Assembly: GCA_012798185.1 (NCBI GenBank)
Contig: JAAZNS010000259.1
Coordinates: forward strand, 1 to 32,428
Origin: Chloroflexota bacterium
GTDB taxonomy: Bacteria > Chloroflexota > Anaerolineae > Anaerolineales > UBA4823
Direction of reading: 5' to 3'
Length of the DNA: 32,428 nt
Shown in pieces: positions 14,352 to 25,758 of the stretch (positions are counted from its first letter, which is position 1; each line of letters opens with the position of its first letter). The position numbers and the translations under genes are program-made. The notes under the pieces were generated by a model. It did not search any database. It was not told where the DNA came from and saw only the letters and a list, made by a program, of their open reading frames with translations.

Positions 14352-14797
14352 TTGATTTTTGGAAATAGTATGGATATGGAGGGAATTGAGAATGAAAGTG
14401 TTCATCTCATGATCACATCTCCGCCGTATTTTAATGCACCTTTCGATTATAAAGTGCTCTATGAAACATATGATGATTATATGGGAGTATTACAAGCAGT
14501 TGCAAAAGAGACTTATCGAGTTTTAAAAAATGGACGGATCGCCGTATTAAATATAGATGACATACTCGTTCATGGTGAAAAATATCCAATTGTTGCTGAT
14601 GCGACTAGGATTTTTATAGACGCAGGATTTCGATATAGAGATCGAATAATAATGTTGAATATACCCCGGTACCCATTTTAAAATTGTCTTCTGATTATAA
14701 AAATCAGGGTAAAAAATTATTAAAGAAACACAATGATATATTAAATCAATTAAACCAAGAGGGAAAACATAATGGCTTCCAAGTGAAATATTTTTGA
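14352..14797 (+). pseudogene. Decayed adenine-specific DNA methyltransferase (restriction-modification type) remnant
   Basis: 109-aa ORF (14352-14681, TTG start) with GNSMDMEGIENESVHLMITSPPYFN (motif IV SPPY) and RVLKNGRIAVLNIDDI. It stops early, and a different frame then reads KLSSDYKNQGKKLLKKHNDILNQLNQEGKHNGFQVKYF* to 14797. AT-richer than the flanks. Confidence 0.7.
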
Positions 14798-18390: not shown

Positions 18391-19524
18391 TCAAACCGGC
18401 CTCAAAACGCGGTCTTTACGTAACTCTTTATAGAACAAGATGCTACCCATCGGCATTGATTCCTTTGCTGCTTCTTGCCAAGCACGAGTGCTCAAGCTGT
18501 TTATGTTCCCCTCTTTATAGCCTAAAGAAGTCCAAAGCGCACTCTGCGTTGCCAGATGAGGAGGAATAAATAATAACGCGATCTCGCACTGTAAATTCCG
18601 TGATGCAATTTCCATTTCCTCTAATAAAGCACGAATAACTTCCGAAAAAGGTATTTCGGGATCCCAATAAATATCATCCACGCGGGCAATTAAATTTTCG
18701 ACCTGCCACCCGATAATGCCAATCAATTTTTCCTGACGCCTCAGCAAGAGGAACGCTTTTTCACTCAGCCACGCAATAATGTCATCCGATTTTATTGTCC
18801 GTTGGTTATCAGCAATCCGGTTGATAAAATCTGCCATTTCCATAGCTTGTTTCGGACGTGCCCTTTGCACCGTCATTTGATCCGTTAGAGTTTTTACTTG
18901 TTCGATCAACCCGGCTTCACTTTGGGGAACAGTTCTCTGCCAGGCGGTAAAAACCTGCTGCCATGTATCATCGAAAGATTTATCATTGCGAATGATAATA
19001 TCCGCTAAATCAACTTTCCCTTGCTGAGGCGGCTGCGCTGCCATACGCTGACGGGCAGCGGCTTCATTCATCCCGCGTTTTTGAACCAGCCGTGTAACCT
19101 GAATTTCTTCCGAAGCATATACGACCCAAAGTGTGTCACAACGAGAGCGTAAACCCGATTCGATTAATTTAATTGCCTCGATGACGATAACCATTTGCTG
19201 GGAATGTTTAACCAGCAAATCTACCGCCTGATGAACCAGGGGATGAACAATCGCTTCGAGCTGCGACATGGCTTGACGATCTGAAAACACAATCATCCCT
19301 AATTTATTGCGGTCAATCTGTCCATCAGGGGTTAATATCCATTTTCCGAAATGATCGACAACCGCCTGATACCCTGGGGCGCCTCTAGCAATTGCGCGAT
19401 GCCCTAAAGCATCCGCATCGATGCCATACGCCCCCATATGCTCAAGCATTTTCCTTACGACGCTTTTTCCGGTCGCAATATTCCCTGTTAATCCAATTAC
19501 GTATTTTCCTTGCCAGGCGCTCAT
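18391..19524 (-). CDS. coaE: Dephospho-CoA kinase with C-terminal GNAT-like extension
   Basis: N-terminal CoaE (IGLTGNIATGKSVVRKMLEHMGAYGIDADALGH; HPLVHQAV; VWVVYASEEIQVTRLVQKRGMNEAAARQRMAAQ). C-terminal extension of about 165 aa with acetyltransferase-like layout (VQRARPKQAMEMADFINR...). ATG at 19524 preferred. Confidence 0.9.
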   Translation of the reverse strand: MSAWQGKYVIGLTGNIATGKSVVRKMLEHMGAYGIDADALGHRAIARGAPGYQAVVDHFGKWILTPDGQIDRNKLGMIVFSDRQAMSQLEAIVHPLVHQAVDLLVKHSQQMVIVIEAIKLIESGLRSRCDTLWVVYASEEIQVTRLVQKRGMNEAAARQRMAAQPPQQGKVDLADIIIRNDKSFDDTWQQVFTAWQRTVPQSEAGLIEQVKTLTDQMTVQRARPKQAMEMADFINRIADNQRTIKSDDIIAWLSEKAFLLLRRQEKLIGIIGWQVENLIARVDDIYWDPEIPFSEVIRALLEEMEIASRNLQCEIALLFIPPHLATQSALWTSLGYKEGNINSLSTRAWQEAAKESMPMGSILFYKELRKDRVLRPV

Positions 19525-19543
19525 GTCACTTCCCTTAATATAA

Positions 19544-19586
19544 GACATTCTTCACCCCCATTTTAGCCGGGGGAGCGAAGAATGTC
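19544..19586. other. Strong hairpin between oppF and coaE
   Basis: GACATTCTTC...GAAGAATGTC perfect 10-bp arms with inner CCCC/GGGG pairing; no clear U tract. Confidence 0.5.
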
Positions 19587-19615: not shown

Positions 19616-20635
19616 TTACAAAAACTTCTCTGCGTAATGACAGGCAACCCAATGCCCAGGGCGCAATGCGCGTAATTCGGGTTCGTCTTTTGAGCATATT
19701 TCCTGCGCAACAGGGCACCGTGGATGAAATCGGCAGCCAGAAGGCGGATTAATCGGATTAGGAATTTCCCCTGCAGGCATAACCTGTGTCCTTCGTTCGT
19801 GAGGATTAGGTACCGGCACAGCCGCCATTAACGCTTGTGTATAAGGATGTAATGCATGACCGTATACTTCTCTCAAATCCCCCATTTCAGCCAGCCTGCC
19901 TAAATAGAGAATTCCGATCCGGTCACAAATGTATTTAGCTGTTGCCAGGTCATGGGTGATGAAAAGATACGTTAGATTGAGCTCATTTTTTAATTGCACC
20001 ATCAAGTCCAGCAATAACGCTCTTACACTGACATCCGCCATCGCGATCGGTTCATCCGCCAGGATTAAATCCGGATTGGTTATCAACGCCCTGGCAATTA
20101 CCACCCTTTGCCGCTGTCCACCGGATATTTGATGTGGATACTTAGTAAAAAAGAAATGCGGCGGCGTTAAGCCAACTTTTTCCATAATACTCAATGTAAT
20201 ATCACGGTGTTCGGCGATTTTTTCGGGGTAATGGATCTTTAAACCGTGGGCAATCGAATCACCTAAACACATCCGCGGATTTAGCGATGCCATAGGGTCT
20301 TGAAAAATCACCTGCATCCGCCGGCGGAGTTTGCGTAATTCTTCGCTTTCGAGGGAAGACAGATCGATACCGTCAAACATCACCTTTCCAGCGGTGGGTT
20401 TTTCCAGCCCAATAGCCAGCCTTCCTATGGTTGTTTTTCCGCTCCCGCTTTCTCCAGCCAATCCGAATGCTTCACCTCGTTTTATAGTAAATGAAACATC
20501 ATCGACAGCTCGAACAAAGTCGACATGACCTGCTAATATTTGATCGAGAAAATTCTGTTGAACCGGAAACCATTTTTTTAAATGCGTGATTTCCACTAAA
20601 TTTTCATTTTTATTAATCGATATTTGTTCGCTCAT
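19616..20635 (-). CDS. oppF: Oligopeptide ABC transporter ATP-binding protein (OppF-like)
   Basis: GESGSGKTTIGRL, SGGQRQRVVIARAL, oligo_HPY C-terminal CRFHPRCPVAQEICSKDEPELR. ATG at 20635 overlaps the oppD stop. Confidence 0.94.
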   Translation of the reverse strand: MSEQISINKNENLVEITHLKKWFPVQQNFLDQILAGHVDFVRAVDDVSFTIKRGEAFGLAGESGSGKTTIGRLAIGLEKPTAGKVMFDGIDLSSLESEELRKLRRRMQVIFQDPMASLNPRMCLGDSIAHGLKIHYPEKIAEHRDITLSIMEKVGLTPPHFFFTKYPHQISGGQRQRVVIARALITNPDLILADEPIAMADVSVRALLLDLMVQLKNELNLTYLFITHDLATAKYICDRIGILYLGRLAEMGDLREVYGHALHPYTQALMAAVPVPNPHERRTQVMPAGEIPNPINPPSGCRFHPRCPVAQEICSKDEPELRALRPGHWVACHYAEKFL

Positions 20636-21648
20636 GCTTTTACCTTTATGGTCGAGCGTTCCTTTTGAGGATGATCCTGGTATAACCAGCAATGCACCCA
20701 TCTGCCAGGCACAACCTCCTCCATATTCGGACAAAATCGAGAGCACAGGGGCATTGCCTCAGGGCATCGCGGGTGGAATCGGCACCCCGATGGAGGGTGT
20801 GTCAGGTTAGGCGGTTCGCCGCTCATTTTGTATAATTCTTCATGATCATCGAGCTTTATGCTTGGCACAGAGCTTAATAATCCTATTGTATAAGGATGCA
20901 AAGGATTATCAAAGATATTAGTGATATCTCCTAACTCTACGATCTGACCTGCATACATTACCGCAATGCGGTCAGCTATTTCAGCAACCAGGGCAATGTT
21001 ATGGGTAATTACCAGAATTGCCAAACCAAATTCTTCTCGGATTTCGCGCAATTGATCGACCAGCTTGGCTTCGACAATCACATCGAGAGACGTGGTTGCT
21101 TCATCAGCAATAATCAAATCGGCATTTAGGATCAATCCCAAACCAATCATCACCCGTTGGCGCATTCCACCTGAAAGCTGATGGGGGTAATCGCGCAACC
21201 GGCGCTCTTGAATTCCCAGCCTTCCAATAAGTGTACGAACTCTCTCCTGGGCATTTTCCAATACCGTTTTGGGTTCGTGAACCTGAATAGCTTCGATAAG
21301 ATGTTCATCGACGCGCTGCACCGGATTCAACGAGGTCATCGGGTCTTGGAATATCATGCTTATTCGTCTGCCGCGAAAATCGCGCAGGCGTTTTTGGTCA
21401 AATTTCATCACATCTTCGCCGTCGAAAATGATTGCACCACTGCTAATTTTAGCCGGCGGCATGATCATGCGCATGAGCGCTTTTCCCAGAGTACTTTTAC
21501 CACACCCGCTTTCACCCACCAAGCCTAATATTTCACCGCGATAAATGTCGAAAGAAACATCATTAACAGCGCTTACTGGACCAAGCCGTGTATGGTAATT
21601 AACACTTAAATTTCGCACTTGAACAAGAACTTTATCGTTTGACATCAT
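20632..21648 (-). CDS. oppD: Oligopeptide ABC transporter ATP-binding protein (OppD-like)
   Basis: GESGCGKSTLGKAL, LSGGMRQRVMIGLGL, DEATTSLDV, C-terminal CRFHPRCPEAMPLCSRF. Confidence 0.95.
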   Translation of the reverse strand: MMSNDKVLVQVRNLSVNYHTRLGPVSAVNDVSFDIYRGEILGLVGESGCGKSTLGKALMRMIMPPAKISSGAIIFDGEDVMKFDQKRLRDFRGRRISMIFQDPMTSLNPVQRVDEHLIEAIQVHEPKTVLENAQERVRTLIGRLGIQERRLRDYPHQLSGGMRQRVMIGLGLILNADLIIADEATTSLDVIVEAKLVDQLREIREEFGLAILVITHNIALVAEIADRIAVMYAGQIVELGDITNIFDNPLHPYTIGLLSSVPSIKLDDHEELYKMSGEPPNLTHPPSGCRFHPRCPEAMPLCSRFCPNMEEVVPGRWVHCWLYQDHPQKERSTIKVKA

Positions 21649-21649
21649 T

Positions 21650-22921
21650 TTACAGCTCCGCCAGACGAGGGTTCAAAATTTCGGATAAACTCTCGCCCAA
21701 CATGCTAAAAGCCAGGGTGACCATACTTACCATTAACCCGGGAAAGGTGATCAGCCACCAGGCTCGGCGCAGGTAATCCTGTCCGCGCGCCAGGTCAATC
21801 CCCCAATCAGGTGTATCAGGTGGCAGCCCCAAACCTAAAAAGCTTAAGCCTGCTTCAGTTAATATCGCATCGGCAACATTTACAGAGAAGATAATTACAA
21901 TGGAAGGGATCACATTGGGAAAGATATATTTCCATAATATTGTGCTTGGTTTTGCACCTAAACTGCGTGCTGCCTCAACGTATAATTCTTGCTTTACAGA
22001 AAGGGTCTGGCCGCGCACAATACGAAAATAAGTGGGCACATAAAGCACAGCAATCGCGACAATCACATTACCAATCCCAGCCCCCAGTACTGCCGCAATG
22101 GAAATTGCCAGAATCAATCCCGGGAAAGAATATAAACTGTCCATCAGCAGGGTTAATATCCGATCGAAAGGTCCGCTGATAAACCCGCTGATTAAACCCA
22201 GCGGCACGCCGACTAGAATCGAAACAATGGCTGAGGAAAGTCCTACAATCAAAGCGATGCGAGTGCCCCAGATAATGCGGCTGAATATATCCTGCCCAAT
22301 TTGGTTGGTACCAAAAATAAACCCTTTAGCAGTTTCTTCGCGTAACGCTCCGCAGATTTCAAGCTGGGGATATTTTTCGATAATACCCTCCAGCTCAGCA
22401 GGCGCTGCAATGAACCCGTTCACTTCTCCTGCAGCGGTTGCCTCCAAACCTTCTTCCAGAGTCTCGAATCGGATTGGGCGCGGATTATATGTCGCAGGCT
22501 CACCAGCTGCCTTAGCTTCATCATTCAACGCTGTGACAGCCTCCCGTAATGCCTGGCTTGAAGGGCTGGCAACGACTATTCCCACCTTGTTTTTCGAGGA
22601 AGCTATCTCTTTAAATTCCTTGATGTCAGAATCTATATTTGCGACCAGCACAAATGACGAGGGAGCTTCTCCGGGAGCGAGCAAGGATGAACTAACTTCT
22701 GCTTTTGGATCGTAGGGGGCAAACCATTGAGGAAATATTCCAATTATGATAATAAACAACAGCAAAAAAGCGCTGAGTACTACAAACCACCAATCACCGC
22801 CATACCATTTACGCGCTAGAAAAATCTTGCGGACAAATCCAACCCGGTCTAAATCCAATTGCCATTGCGGCACGACATATTCTTGGTCAATATCATTGTC
22901 ATGAGTATTTTTTTCATTCAT
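21650..22921 (-). CDS. oppC: Oligopeptide ABC transporter permease (OppC-like) with a large periplasmic insertion
   Basis: Canonical OppC ends (FAPYDPKAE...; FGTNQIGQDIFSRIIWGTRIALIVGLSSAIVSILVGVPLGLISG; YVPTYFRIVRGQTLSVKQELYVEAARSLGA) with about 113 extra residues (89-201) between them. ATG at 22921 preferred over the ORF-track start 23146. Confidence 0.92.
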   Translation of the reverse strand: MNEKNTHDNDIDQEYVVPQWQLDLDRVGFVRKIFLARKWYGGDWWFVVLSAFLLLFIIIIGIFPQWFAPYDPKAEVSSSLLAPGEAPSSFVLVANIDSDIKEFKEIASSKNKVGIVVASPSSQALREAVTALNDEAKAAGEPATYNPRPIRFETLEEGLEATAAGEVNGFIAAPAELEGIIEKYPQLEICGALREETAKGFIFGTNQIGQDIFSRIIWGTRIALIVGLSSAIVSILVGVPLGLISGFISGPFDRILTLLMDSLYSFPGLILAISIAAVLGAGIGNVIVAIAVLYVPTYFRIVRGQTLSVKQELYVEAARSLGAKPSTILWKYIFPNVIPSIVIIFSVNVADAILTEAGLSFLGLGLPPDTPDWGIDLARGQDYLRRAWWLITFPGLMVSMVTLAFSMLGESLSEILNPRLAEL

Positions 22922-22931
22922 AATCAGCGCC

Positions 22932-23954
22932 TTAATAACGAATTCTCGGGTCAATAAATGCGTATAAGAAATCCATTGCCAGGCTGATGATTGCCACAAA
23001 AAAAGCAAAAACACCAATGGTAGCTTGAACAGCCGTATAATCACGCAATTCGATCCGATCGACCAGATAACGCCCCATTCCAGGCCAGGAGAATGTTGTC
23101 TCGGTAAGCACTGCACCAGCCAATAGAATAGCAAATTGTAAACCAATCAATGTGAGAATTGGAATGAATGTGTTCCTTAAGGCATGTTTGTAAACCAGGC
23201 GCCTTTCGGGCAATCCCCGCGCTCTGCCTGCGGTTATAAAATCTGCCTGGAGCATTTCGATCATATTAACTCGGGTTAGGCGGATGAAAACGCCGGTTAA
23301 CGCCAACCCAAGGGTGAGCGAAGGTAAAATCAAATGGGATATACATGACCGGAAAGCAGCCCAATTTCCTTGTAATATCGAATCAAGCACATAAAAATGG
23401 GTTATTGGTCGGAAATTAGTCATCATTAAAGTATCCATTCTGCCTGCCAGCGGCAAAATGGGAATTCGCACGGAAAAAATGATCTGGAAAACCAACCCCA
23501 TAAAAAAGATAGGGATTGAATACACTGCGATGCTGAACAAACGAATACCGTAATCGATGGTCTTCTTGCGCTTTTCAGCAGCATAGGCACCGCTGACTAT
23601 CCCAAAGATTGCTGTAAAAATCATGGCAGGGACAGTCAATTCAATCGTTGCCGGTAATTTTTCACCCAGTTCATCGATAATCGGACGTTCACCCTGGGTA
23701 AGTGCCGTGCCAAAATCAAGAGTTACCATTTTCCAAAGGAAATCGAAATACTGCACGTAAAGCGGACGGTTCAAGCCGAGCCGTTCTCTTAGTGCCATGG
23801 CTTGCTCTTCGCTTACCTTTGGTCCAAGCTGAGATCGAATTGGATCACCAGGAAGTATCCGCATAACGATAAAAACCATGGTGATTAAAATCCAAATCAT
23901 CGGGATGGTTAAAAAAATTCGAGTGATTAAAAAATTCCTGAGGGAGGATGACAT
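22932..23954 (-). CDS. oppB: Oligopeptide ABC transporter permease (OppB-like)
   Basis: FLITRIFLTIPMIWILITMVFIVMRILPGDPI...; EAA-loop ITAGRARGLPERRLVYKHALRNTFIPILT; C-terminal AFFVAIISLAMDFLYAFIDPRIRY. Confidence 0.95.
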   Translation of the reverse strand: MSSSLRNFLITRIFLTIPMIWILITMVFIVMRILPGDPIRSQLGPKVSEEQAMALRERLGLNRPLYVQYFDFLWKMVTLDFGTALTQGERPIIDELGEKLPATIELTVPAMIFTAIFGIVSGAYAAEKRKKTIDYGIRLFSIAVYSIPIFFMGLVFQIIFSVRIPILPLAGRMDTLMMTNFRPITHFYVLDSILQGNWAAFRSCISHLILPSLTLGLALTGVFIRLTRVNMIEMLQADFITAGRARGLPERRLVYKHALRNTFIPILTLIGLQFAILLAGAVLTETTFSWPGMGRYLVDRIELRDYTAVQATIGVFAFFVAIISLAMDFLYAFIDPRIRY

Positions 23955-23980
23955 GCAAAACACTCCGTAAAAAATTCAAG

Positions 23981-24054: not shown

Positions 24055-25758
24055 CTACTCACCGCCAGTCATGTAAGTGCAGTTGAATACAAGATACCGC
24101 AGGGTGGGGGCATCGATCTTGGTGACGGTCAATCCTTCGACGCTTTGCAGCCGTGTCGCTTCAACAGCGCCAAGAATTCGCCAGGCGATATCGATTTCGC
24201 CTTTTTCAACTGCCTGACTCATAGTGGTCGGGTCGGCGAAGTAGCGGATAATCACTTTGGGGATGATTGGTTTATCATCACCAAAATAATTCGGATTGGC
24301 TTCCAAAACCATTTGCTCACCTGCAACATAGGAAACCATGCGGTAAGGACCAACACCGTCCAAAGCAGTTGGGAATTGGACAATTTTATCTGCCGGGAAT
24401 TGATTAGGATTCACCGGTACAAATGGAGCAGTAGCAGCAATGGCAGGGAAGAAACCGAATGAATCTTTAAGGTGGTAAACCACGGTCAGATCATCGGGAG
24501 CTTCCACGCTTTCCACATAGATCTGCACCAAACCTGAAACCTGCCCTTCCAATGTGTTGATCCGATCCCAGGCATAAACATAATCTTTTGCCGTAAGCGG
24601 CGTGCCATCGGCAAATTTAACACCTTCGCGCAGTTTGAAGGTATAGGTCTTGCCATCTTCGCTAACAGTGGGTAATTCTGCTGCCACGCCGGGAATCAAA
24701 TCCGCAGTTCCGGGGGCGTATGTCAACAGAGGCACCCCGGTGTTCTTCAAGATTTCCCAGTCGTGCGTGGCATAGGCATCGTTTGCATCGAGGCTGTTTA
24801 CTTCATCGGTAGTGCCAATGATCAGCGTGTCGGTGCTGCCCGAAGCTGGAACAGCATCAGCCGCAAAGCTGACGATGTTGTAGTTGAATTCAAAGGGTGG
24901 GCCAATCTTAACCCCTTCGATGCCTTTTCGGGTTGTTACGAATTCCGGTTCCCAAAACATGGGGATGGTGGGAACTTCTTCTGCATACAATTCGCCAATT
25001 TCCTTATAAGTCGCTTCACGTACTGCCGGATCAGAGGATGATGCTGCTTTTTGCAGCAAAGCATCCATCTTCTCATTGCAGTAATTCACCCCATTATCTG
25101 GTGATTGCAGGCAGGAAGCAAAAGGCGTCAGCCAGGTATCAGGATCAGCAAAATCGGGGAACCAGCCCAGCATAAACATGGGCAGTTTTCCAGCCACAAA
25201 GCTGTCAACATATTCAGCCCAGTTTTGACTTTTAAGTTCGACCTTCATCAAGCCAGTCTCTTCCAATTGTTCCTTGATCACCTGCATCACATCAGCGGTC
25301 GTAGTGCCATAATGCTCAGGTGGATACCATAGCTCGAAGGTAAATGGATTGTCTTCGGTGTAACCCAAACTGGTGAGAATTTGTTTAGAAAGTTCCAGAT
25401 CGCGGGTACCATATTTATCTAGAAACGCTTCGGTAGCATAAGGATATCCCGGTGGAACCATATGGTAAGCAGGTGCATTTCGGCCTTCGAAGACACGGTC
25501 AACAATGACCTCGCGATCAATAGCGGCTGCAATAGCCGAGCGGAGTTCTTTGCTCCATAAAAGATGTGGTTCTTCCGTAGGTTCTTCAGTTGCAACCGGT
25601 TCTTCGGTGGCAACCGGCGCTTCAGTAACTACAGGCGCCTCTGTGGCAGCAGCCTCTTCAGTTGCTACAGGAGCTGCTGTTGGCGTCGTGCAAGCGCCCA
25701 GCGCCATACTAAGCAACACTAATAAAACGCCTAATTTGTAAAGTATTTTTTTATTCAT
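24055..25758 (-). CDS. Peptide ABC transporter substrate-binding lipoprotein (SBP_bac_5 family), apparently circularly permuted
   Basis: Signal peptide/lipobox MNKKILYKLGVLLVLLSMALGAC, TEEP-rich linker. SBP_bac_5 C-terminal half (residues ~65-298: ELRSAIAAAIDREVIV...NYNIVSF) precedes the N-terminal half (~309-560: TDTLIIGTTDEVNSLDANDAYATHD...LRYLVFNC). Confidence 0.92.
   Translation of the reverse strand: MNKKILYKLGVLLVLLSMALGACTTPTAAPVATEEAAATEAPVVTEAPVATEEPVATEEPTEEPHLLWSKELRSAIAAAIDREVIVDRVFEGRNAPAYHMVPPGYPYATEAFLDKYGTRDLELSKQILTSLGYTEDNPFTFELWYPPEHYGTTTADVMQVIKEQLEETGLMKVELKSQNWAEYVDSFVAGKLPMFMLGWFPDFADPDTWLTPFASCLQSPDNGVNYCNEKMDALLQKAASSSDPAVREATYKEIGELYAEEVPTIPMFWEPEFVTTRKGIEGVKIGPPFEFNYNIVSFAADAVPASGSTDTLIIGTTDEVNSLDANDAYATHDWEILKNTGVPLLTYAPGTADLIPGVAAELPTVSEDGKTYTFKLREGVKFADGTPLTAKDYVYAWDRINTLEGQVSGLVQIYVESVEAPDDLTVVYHLKDSFGFFPAIAATAPFVPVNPNQFPADKIVQFPTALDGVGPYRMVSYVAGEQMVLEANPNYFGDDKPIIPKVIIRYFADPTTMSQAVEKGEIDIAWRILGAVEATRLQSVEGLTVTKIDAPTLRYLVFNCTYMTGGE

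Follow-up and report, generated by a model that had tools for sequence, protein, structure and literature searches.

The OppC-type permease of a peptide importer from a Chloroflexota bacterium carries, in the outer loop between its first two transmembrane helices (TM1 and TM2), an insert that is near certainly a single lobe 2 of a type-2, family-3-like substrate-binding protein (SBP). The insert is confirmed as real and inherited. By analogy with other importers, its most likely role would be that of a built-in docking lobe, on the OppC side, for the lipid-tethered peptide SBP. The window referred to below is the whole stretch of DNA that was analysed, 32,428 nucleotides in length.

Operon and position of the insert

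Five genes on the minus strand of the window form one operon, in the order SBP (25758–24055), OppB, OppC, OppD and OppF. The SBP (24055–25758) is a family-5 lipoprotein that is circularly permuted, its C-terminal part coming first, so that SBP_bac_5 matches it in two stretches of swapped order. The permease OppB (22932–23963) matches BPD_transp_1 and BPD_transp_1_N in Pfam. Both ATPases, OppD (20632–21648), with the C-terminal cysteine motif of peptide importers, and OppF (19616–20635; the ATG start at 20635 is a judgement from sequence), match ABC_tran and oligo_HPY. Homologous loci place OppC in the same company as the window does: wherever the contig was long enough, an insert-bearing OppC was always found in an SBP-OppB-OppC-OppD-OppF operon.

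OppC itself (21650–22921, minus strand; 423 amino acids, ATG start at 22921) is a permease of the OppC/DppC type. Its core matches BPD_transp_1 (PF00528) over residues 238–421 with an E value of 9.6e-28, its EAA-loop region EAARSLGAKPSTILWKYIFPN is intact, and an OppC_N match at residues 48–77 scores 18.7 bits, under the cut-off of 23.9. TM1 is predicted at residues 43–62 (22736–22795, minus strand), where the AlphaFold2 model has a helix preceded by K/R-rich residues. The full-length model superposes on E. coli DppC (8z1x_B) with a TMt of 0.86. Between TM1 and TM2, on the outer side, the protein reads APYDP...LLAPGEAPS, then 113 amino acids, and then IFGTNQIGQDIFSR. The original prediction had placed about these residues, 89–201, as extra sequence between the two flanks, and the coordinates proved exact (22657–22319, minus strand). 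E. coli DppC aligns to OppC in two pieces, 51–84 and 197–421, and skips the insert. The nearest insert-free relatives, from Desulfobacterota and Chloroflexota metagenome-assembled genomes (MAGs) with a core identity of 58–64%, have only a few residues at the site. Routine variation in OppC length was ruled out, since the alignment shows direct joining in the insert-free relatives; loop lengths counted by regular expression, some of them inflated, were left out of this judgement.

Two further features of the window were recorded. The dephospho-CoA kinase CoaE (18391–19548, minus strand; kinase domain at residues 16–193) is extended at its C-terminus by about 190 residues, also present at two other loci (L039 and L041), for which no Pfam match was found at E ≤ 0.01. 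On the plus strand, a frame of 109 amino acids (14352–14681), lying between signal-peptidase-like and der-like genes, matches only the start of N6_N4_Mtase (profile positions 1–79 of 221) and is an apparent methylase fragment.

Distribution and selection

A search of 61 related genomes yielded five other full-length insert homologues and a partial match in genome G048 (L015/L044), which is a shorter form; most of the remaining homologues came from a scan of genome contigs, bringing the aligned total to 39. The insert lies within one open frame in each of the 39, the shorter form at L044 among them. Its carriers are largely Anaerolineae and include the isolates Ornatilinea apprima, Anaerolinea thermolimosa, Longilinea arvoryzae and Pelolinea submarina, while two homologues sit in MAGs labelled Actinomycetota, possibly through a binning error. 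Matches at E ≤ 1e-6 were found in 23 of 201 genomes drawn from the order, some of them with a shorter insert; this short form measures 88–92 amino acids (seven sequences). An assembly artefact was ruled out by the 39 homologues in other genomes, each in one open frame and isolates included.

The insert is under purifying selection. Its dN/dS was 0.09 and 0.12 in the two full-length pairs for which dS could be measured, compared with about 0.02 for the OppC core; two rows from L062, in which the insert was mis-cut, were left out. Residues R126, P147, R148 and R151 are invariant or near-invariant among inserts and are not typical of free lobes. At two loci a frame of the operon is broken, either by real decay or by MAG error: one TAG splits the OppC frame just after the insert in G470 (L217, 3252–4565), and the SBP of G048 spans two overlapping frames (L044, 8497–10136).

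Identity of the inserted domain

That the insert resembles lobe 2 of a type-3 SBP had been suggested from the sequence, and profile-profile comparison with controls, a profile search of the PDB, and AlphaFold with Foldseek now agree on it. When the insert profile was compared by hhalign with an SBP_bac_3 profile built from 26 SBP domains of family 3, almost all of them taken from this and related genomes, the probability was 97.3% over the lobe-2 columns; a reversed profile gave 0.2% and five column shuffles gave 0.0–0.2%. The short form reached 98.4% against the family-3 profile and 99.0% against the long form. Searching the PDB with the profile of 40 inserts put type-2 binding proteins on top, namely the ancestral AncQR (residues 98–181, E 8.6e-5) and AncCDT-1; domain 2 of Thermotoga maritima ArgBP, which had been crystallised on its own, followed at a lower rank. 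Individual sequences were less informative. The best match of a single member was that of the L042 insert to Phosphonate-bd (positions 86–181 of 242, E 1.7e-5), which at 24.8 bits stays below the cut-off of 27, and no SBP family exceeded its Pfam gathering score for the insert. Single-sequence searches of Pfam and the PDB with the insert returned a sub-threshold Shikimate_dh_N match and armadillo-repeat matches, each stretch of which was insignificant.

The structural models point the same way. The AlphaFold model of the insert has a mean pLDDT of 79, about 85–92 in the folded part and about 87 in its core, with the strand and helix order E-H-E-H-E-H-E-H-E, and the domain is retained between TM1 and TM2 in the model of the whole OppC. 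The best 50 Foldseek matches in the PDB all had the type-2 periplasmic binding protein (PBP) fold; the isolated ArgBP domain 2 (6gpm) aligned with a TMt of 0.72. Neither a disordered model nor a commonplace length difference, either of which would have spoken against the original prediction, was found: the model is folded, and insert-free relatives join directly across the site. The insert shares with lobe 2 of family-3 SBPs (SBP_bac_3; ArgBP, AncQR) the fold, the strand and helix order, the sequence profile and the motif Y-x-T-x-E-E-x-L-x-A-L-x-x-G-x-I/V-D. It differs from them in being one lobe only, within a permease loop, in having lost the ligand aspartate, and in having an extra conserved RYQPR segment ahead of the central strand.

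Weak Pfam matches to ABC2_membrane_3 in 16 of the 40 members (best 8.2e-4) raised the alternative that the insert is not an SBP lobe but the kind of extracellular domain seen in ABC-2 exporters (PF12698). Profile-profile comparison ruled this out, with hhalign giving 1.5% against 97.3% for SBP_bac_3, and 0.1% for the short form; the 50 best Foldseek matches, being uniformly of the type-2 PBP fold, also oppose it, and we regard it as extremely improbable.

A segment matching the insert profile (E 1.8e-5) was also seen in the first outside loop of a PMT_2 family membrane protein (PF13231; L129, 1126–3144). This segment, RVQRYDTLEDGVQALTSGQISGLIVS, is possibly another captured lobe piece.

Ligand site of the lobe

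The aspartate that follows the fourth lobe-2 strand, which anchors the ligand amino group in HisJ and GlnBP, is present in 25 of 26 free family-3 SBPs and in none of the 40 aligned inserts, where the position holds S (22), A (9) or other residues and never D. Three short-form members retain D at the site, as VDE, VDQ and IDE (L212, L213 and L217). The G-S/T that starts the ligand-side helix is mostly kept (G in 36/40, S or T in 37/40). The two-lobe cleft of a functional SBP is absent, the insert being one contiguous lobe only. With the aspartate lost and the second lobe missing, conventional amino-acid binding by the long form is unlikely, and the insert is probably not a ligand-binding half.

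Evolutionary history of the insert and the permuted SBP

In trees of the OppC core, from which the insert columns had been removed, all long-insert rows fell in one clade, with support of 97/97 (42 rows) or 94/96 (39 rows). Once the short form is added the tree needs two changes, which fits one gain with losses or two gains. Except for how many early events there were and which way they went, homology and the tree show a capture in an ancestor of the Anaerolineae-type transporters, in which the TM1-TM2 loop of OppC took up lobe 2 of a family-3 amino-acid-binding protein.

The partner SBP, which had been described as rearranged, is genuinely circularly permuted, and the permutation has a single origin. 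SBP_bac_5 matched in two swapped stretches both in the window and in the SBPs of four isolates; besides the window, the permutation was noted at L047, L054, L061 and L076. In about 30 genomes the permuted protein aligns collinearly from end to end, and in others the order is canonical. In the permuted protein the lipobox and a Pro/Thr/Glu-rich linker now run into the C-terminal part. A natural circular permutation also occurs in the Treponema pallidum SBP TpMglB-2 (Tp0684), as stated in the cited part of PMC4990184; unlike the window SBP, TpMglB-2 belongs to cluster B and binds sugar, and that part of the paper reports no permease insert.

The original prediction had implied a link between the insert and the rearranged SBP, but none is needed. 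Canonical SBPs accompany long inserts in seven operons (L043, L073, L074, L077, L081, L219 and L220), as they do in those short-insert operons whose SBP was available for comparison, and the permutation is one change on the OppC tree, within the insert clade. The canonical-SBP operons and the order on the tree rule out that the insert depends on a permuted partner; it is therefore older than the permutation and independent of it.

Possible role of the lobe

The reading that we favour, at somewhat less than an even chance, is that the insert is a docking lobe. It would stand next to the pore at the outer surface, on the OppC side and opposite the OppB scoop motif. There it would hold the lipid-tethered peptide SBP above the pore and, while the peptide is handed over, help to seal the cavity that faces outward. 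This role is proposed by analogy with two known elements. In E. coli, the DppB scoop motif, which lies between TM1 and TM2, reaches into the DppA cleft and seals the outward cavity (PMC12136057). In the maltose importer, the binding protein is contacted by P2, a large outside region of MalF (PMC3150292). The insert occupies the OppC loop that corresponds to the scoop-motif loop of DppB, and, like MalF P2, it forms a folded domain in an outer loop of a permease (AlphaFold2 models). A weak hint of docking also came from divergence: corrected for the OppC core, the partial correlation with the insert was slightly closer for the SBP (r = 0.45) than for the other subunits (OppB/OppD/OppF; 0.41, 0.30 and 0.27). 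Two observations count against docking. The mean distance was 0.55 for the insert, 0.19 for the OppC core and 0.25 for the SBP, and a divergence about three times that of the core and twice that of the SBP is unlike a tight, conserved interface. In addition, insert-free sister transporters have an identical operon layout. As the difference in correlation is small and the insert diverges some threefold faster than the core, our confidence in docking stays below one half.

The chief alternative is that the lobe is passive or stabilising, an outside domain that serves as a spacer or contacts the membrane or cell envelope, with no SBP docking, in a TM1-TM2 loop that tolerates domains; we judge this less probable than docking, though a serious contender. 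The fast divergence of the insert would suit such a domain, and the site does tolerate insertions, as is seen from other permeases. The OppB of L094 (3128–4597) and of L097 (5592–7100) has a bacterial SH3 domain in its TM1-TM2 loop (PF08239, E 1.5e-5 in L097), the OppC of both these sister operons lacking the insert, and another OppC of the source genome (L133, 61–1365) has an unrelated, longer loop between TM1 and TM2, about 85 residues in length (GKPQKIHLFDDEGKF...), so that long loops here are not unique to insert-bearing OppC. What a passive role explains less well is the maintenance of one folded domain throughout the long-insert clade, with R126, P147, R148 and R151 near-invariant and a dN/dS of the insert of about 0.1.

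A role in which the lobe, by itself or jointly with an SBP lobe, detects a small ligand and gates the permease is unlikely. Its lobe-2 ancestry, the largely kept G-S/T and the D of the three short forms would be in keeping with a sensor, but the contrast in the aspartate between inserts and free family-3 SBPs, the missing other half of the pocket and the nature of the partner SBP, a complete family-5 protein, speak against it. The suggestion of sensing made in the original prediction accordingly meets counter-evidence where an amino-acid ligand is concerned, the aspartate being lost in 40 of 40 aligned inserts. An extension of the docking idea appears similarly doubtful, namely that the lobe is a permanent third SBP contact which later allowed the SBP to be permuted and re-tethered via its other lobe; if true, the transporter would work with two and a half binding-protein lobes.

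Comparison with known importers and significance

Binding-protein domains are covalently part of the permease polypeptide in the GlnPQ and OpuA importers. These are complete two-lobe ligand-binding domains located, singly or in tandem, at one end of the polypeptide, whereas the insert is a lone lobe in a loop, and the window transporter, unlike GlnPQ/OpuA, retains a separate, complete SBP. MalF P2 is another large folded domain that a type I importer permease carries in an outside loop. Its fold, which is Ig-like, and its loop differ from those of the insert, and the sequences are unrelated. Contact with the SBP is established for P2 (PMC3150292) and only inferred for the insert. The DppB scoop motif (PMC12136057) belongs to the other permease subunit, where it lies between TM1 and TM2 in a position pseudo-symmetric to that of the insert, and consists of about 30 residues with two short helices and no folded lobe; the OppB of the window keeps its own matching region, SEEQAMALRERLGLN. 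With E. coli DppC/OppC (8z1v–8z1z, 8z21) the window OppC shares the permease fold of a six-TM type I importer subunit, and the E. coli peptide importers also share the operon make-up and the two ATPases with a C-terminal cysteine motif; the difference lies in the TM1-TM2 loop, which is short in DppC and holds a folded domain of 113 amino acids in the window. Among open-licence papers, we found no earlier description of a permease with an inserted SBP lobe.

Permeases and their binding proteins are usually viewed either as separate parts or as fusions in which a whole binding domain sits at one end. Here an SBP lobe, normally one of a pair, is now a fixed single piece of the channel. A single lobe in a permease loop shows how a domain with adjacent ends can move between hosts, and nature here provides a test of what portion of an SBP is required for interaction with its permease. 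The transporters form a natural series, from no insert through a short and a long insert to a long insert with a permuted SBP, in which each step can be compared via orthologous operons.
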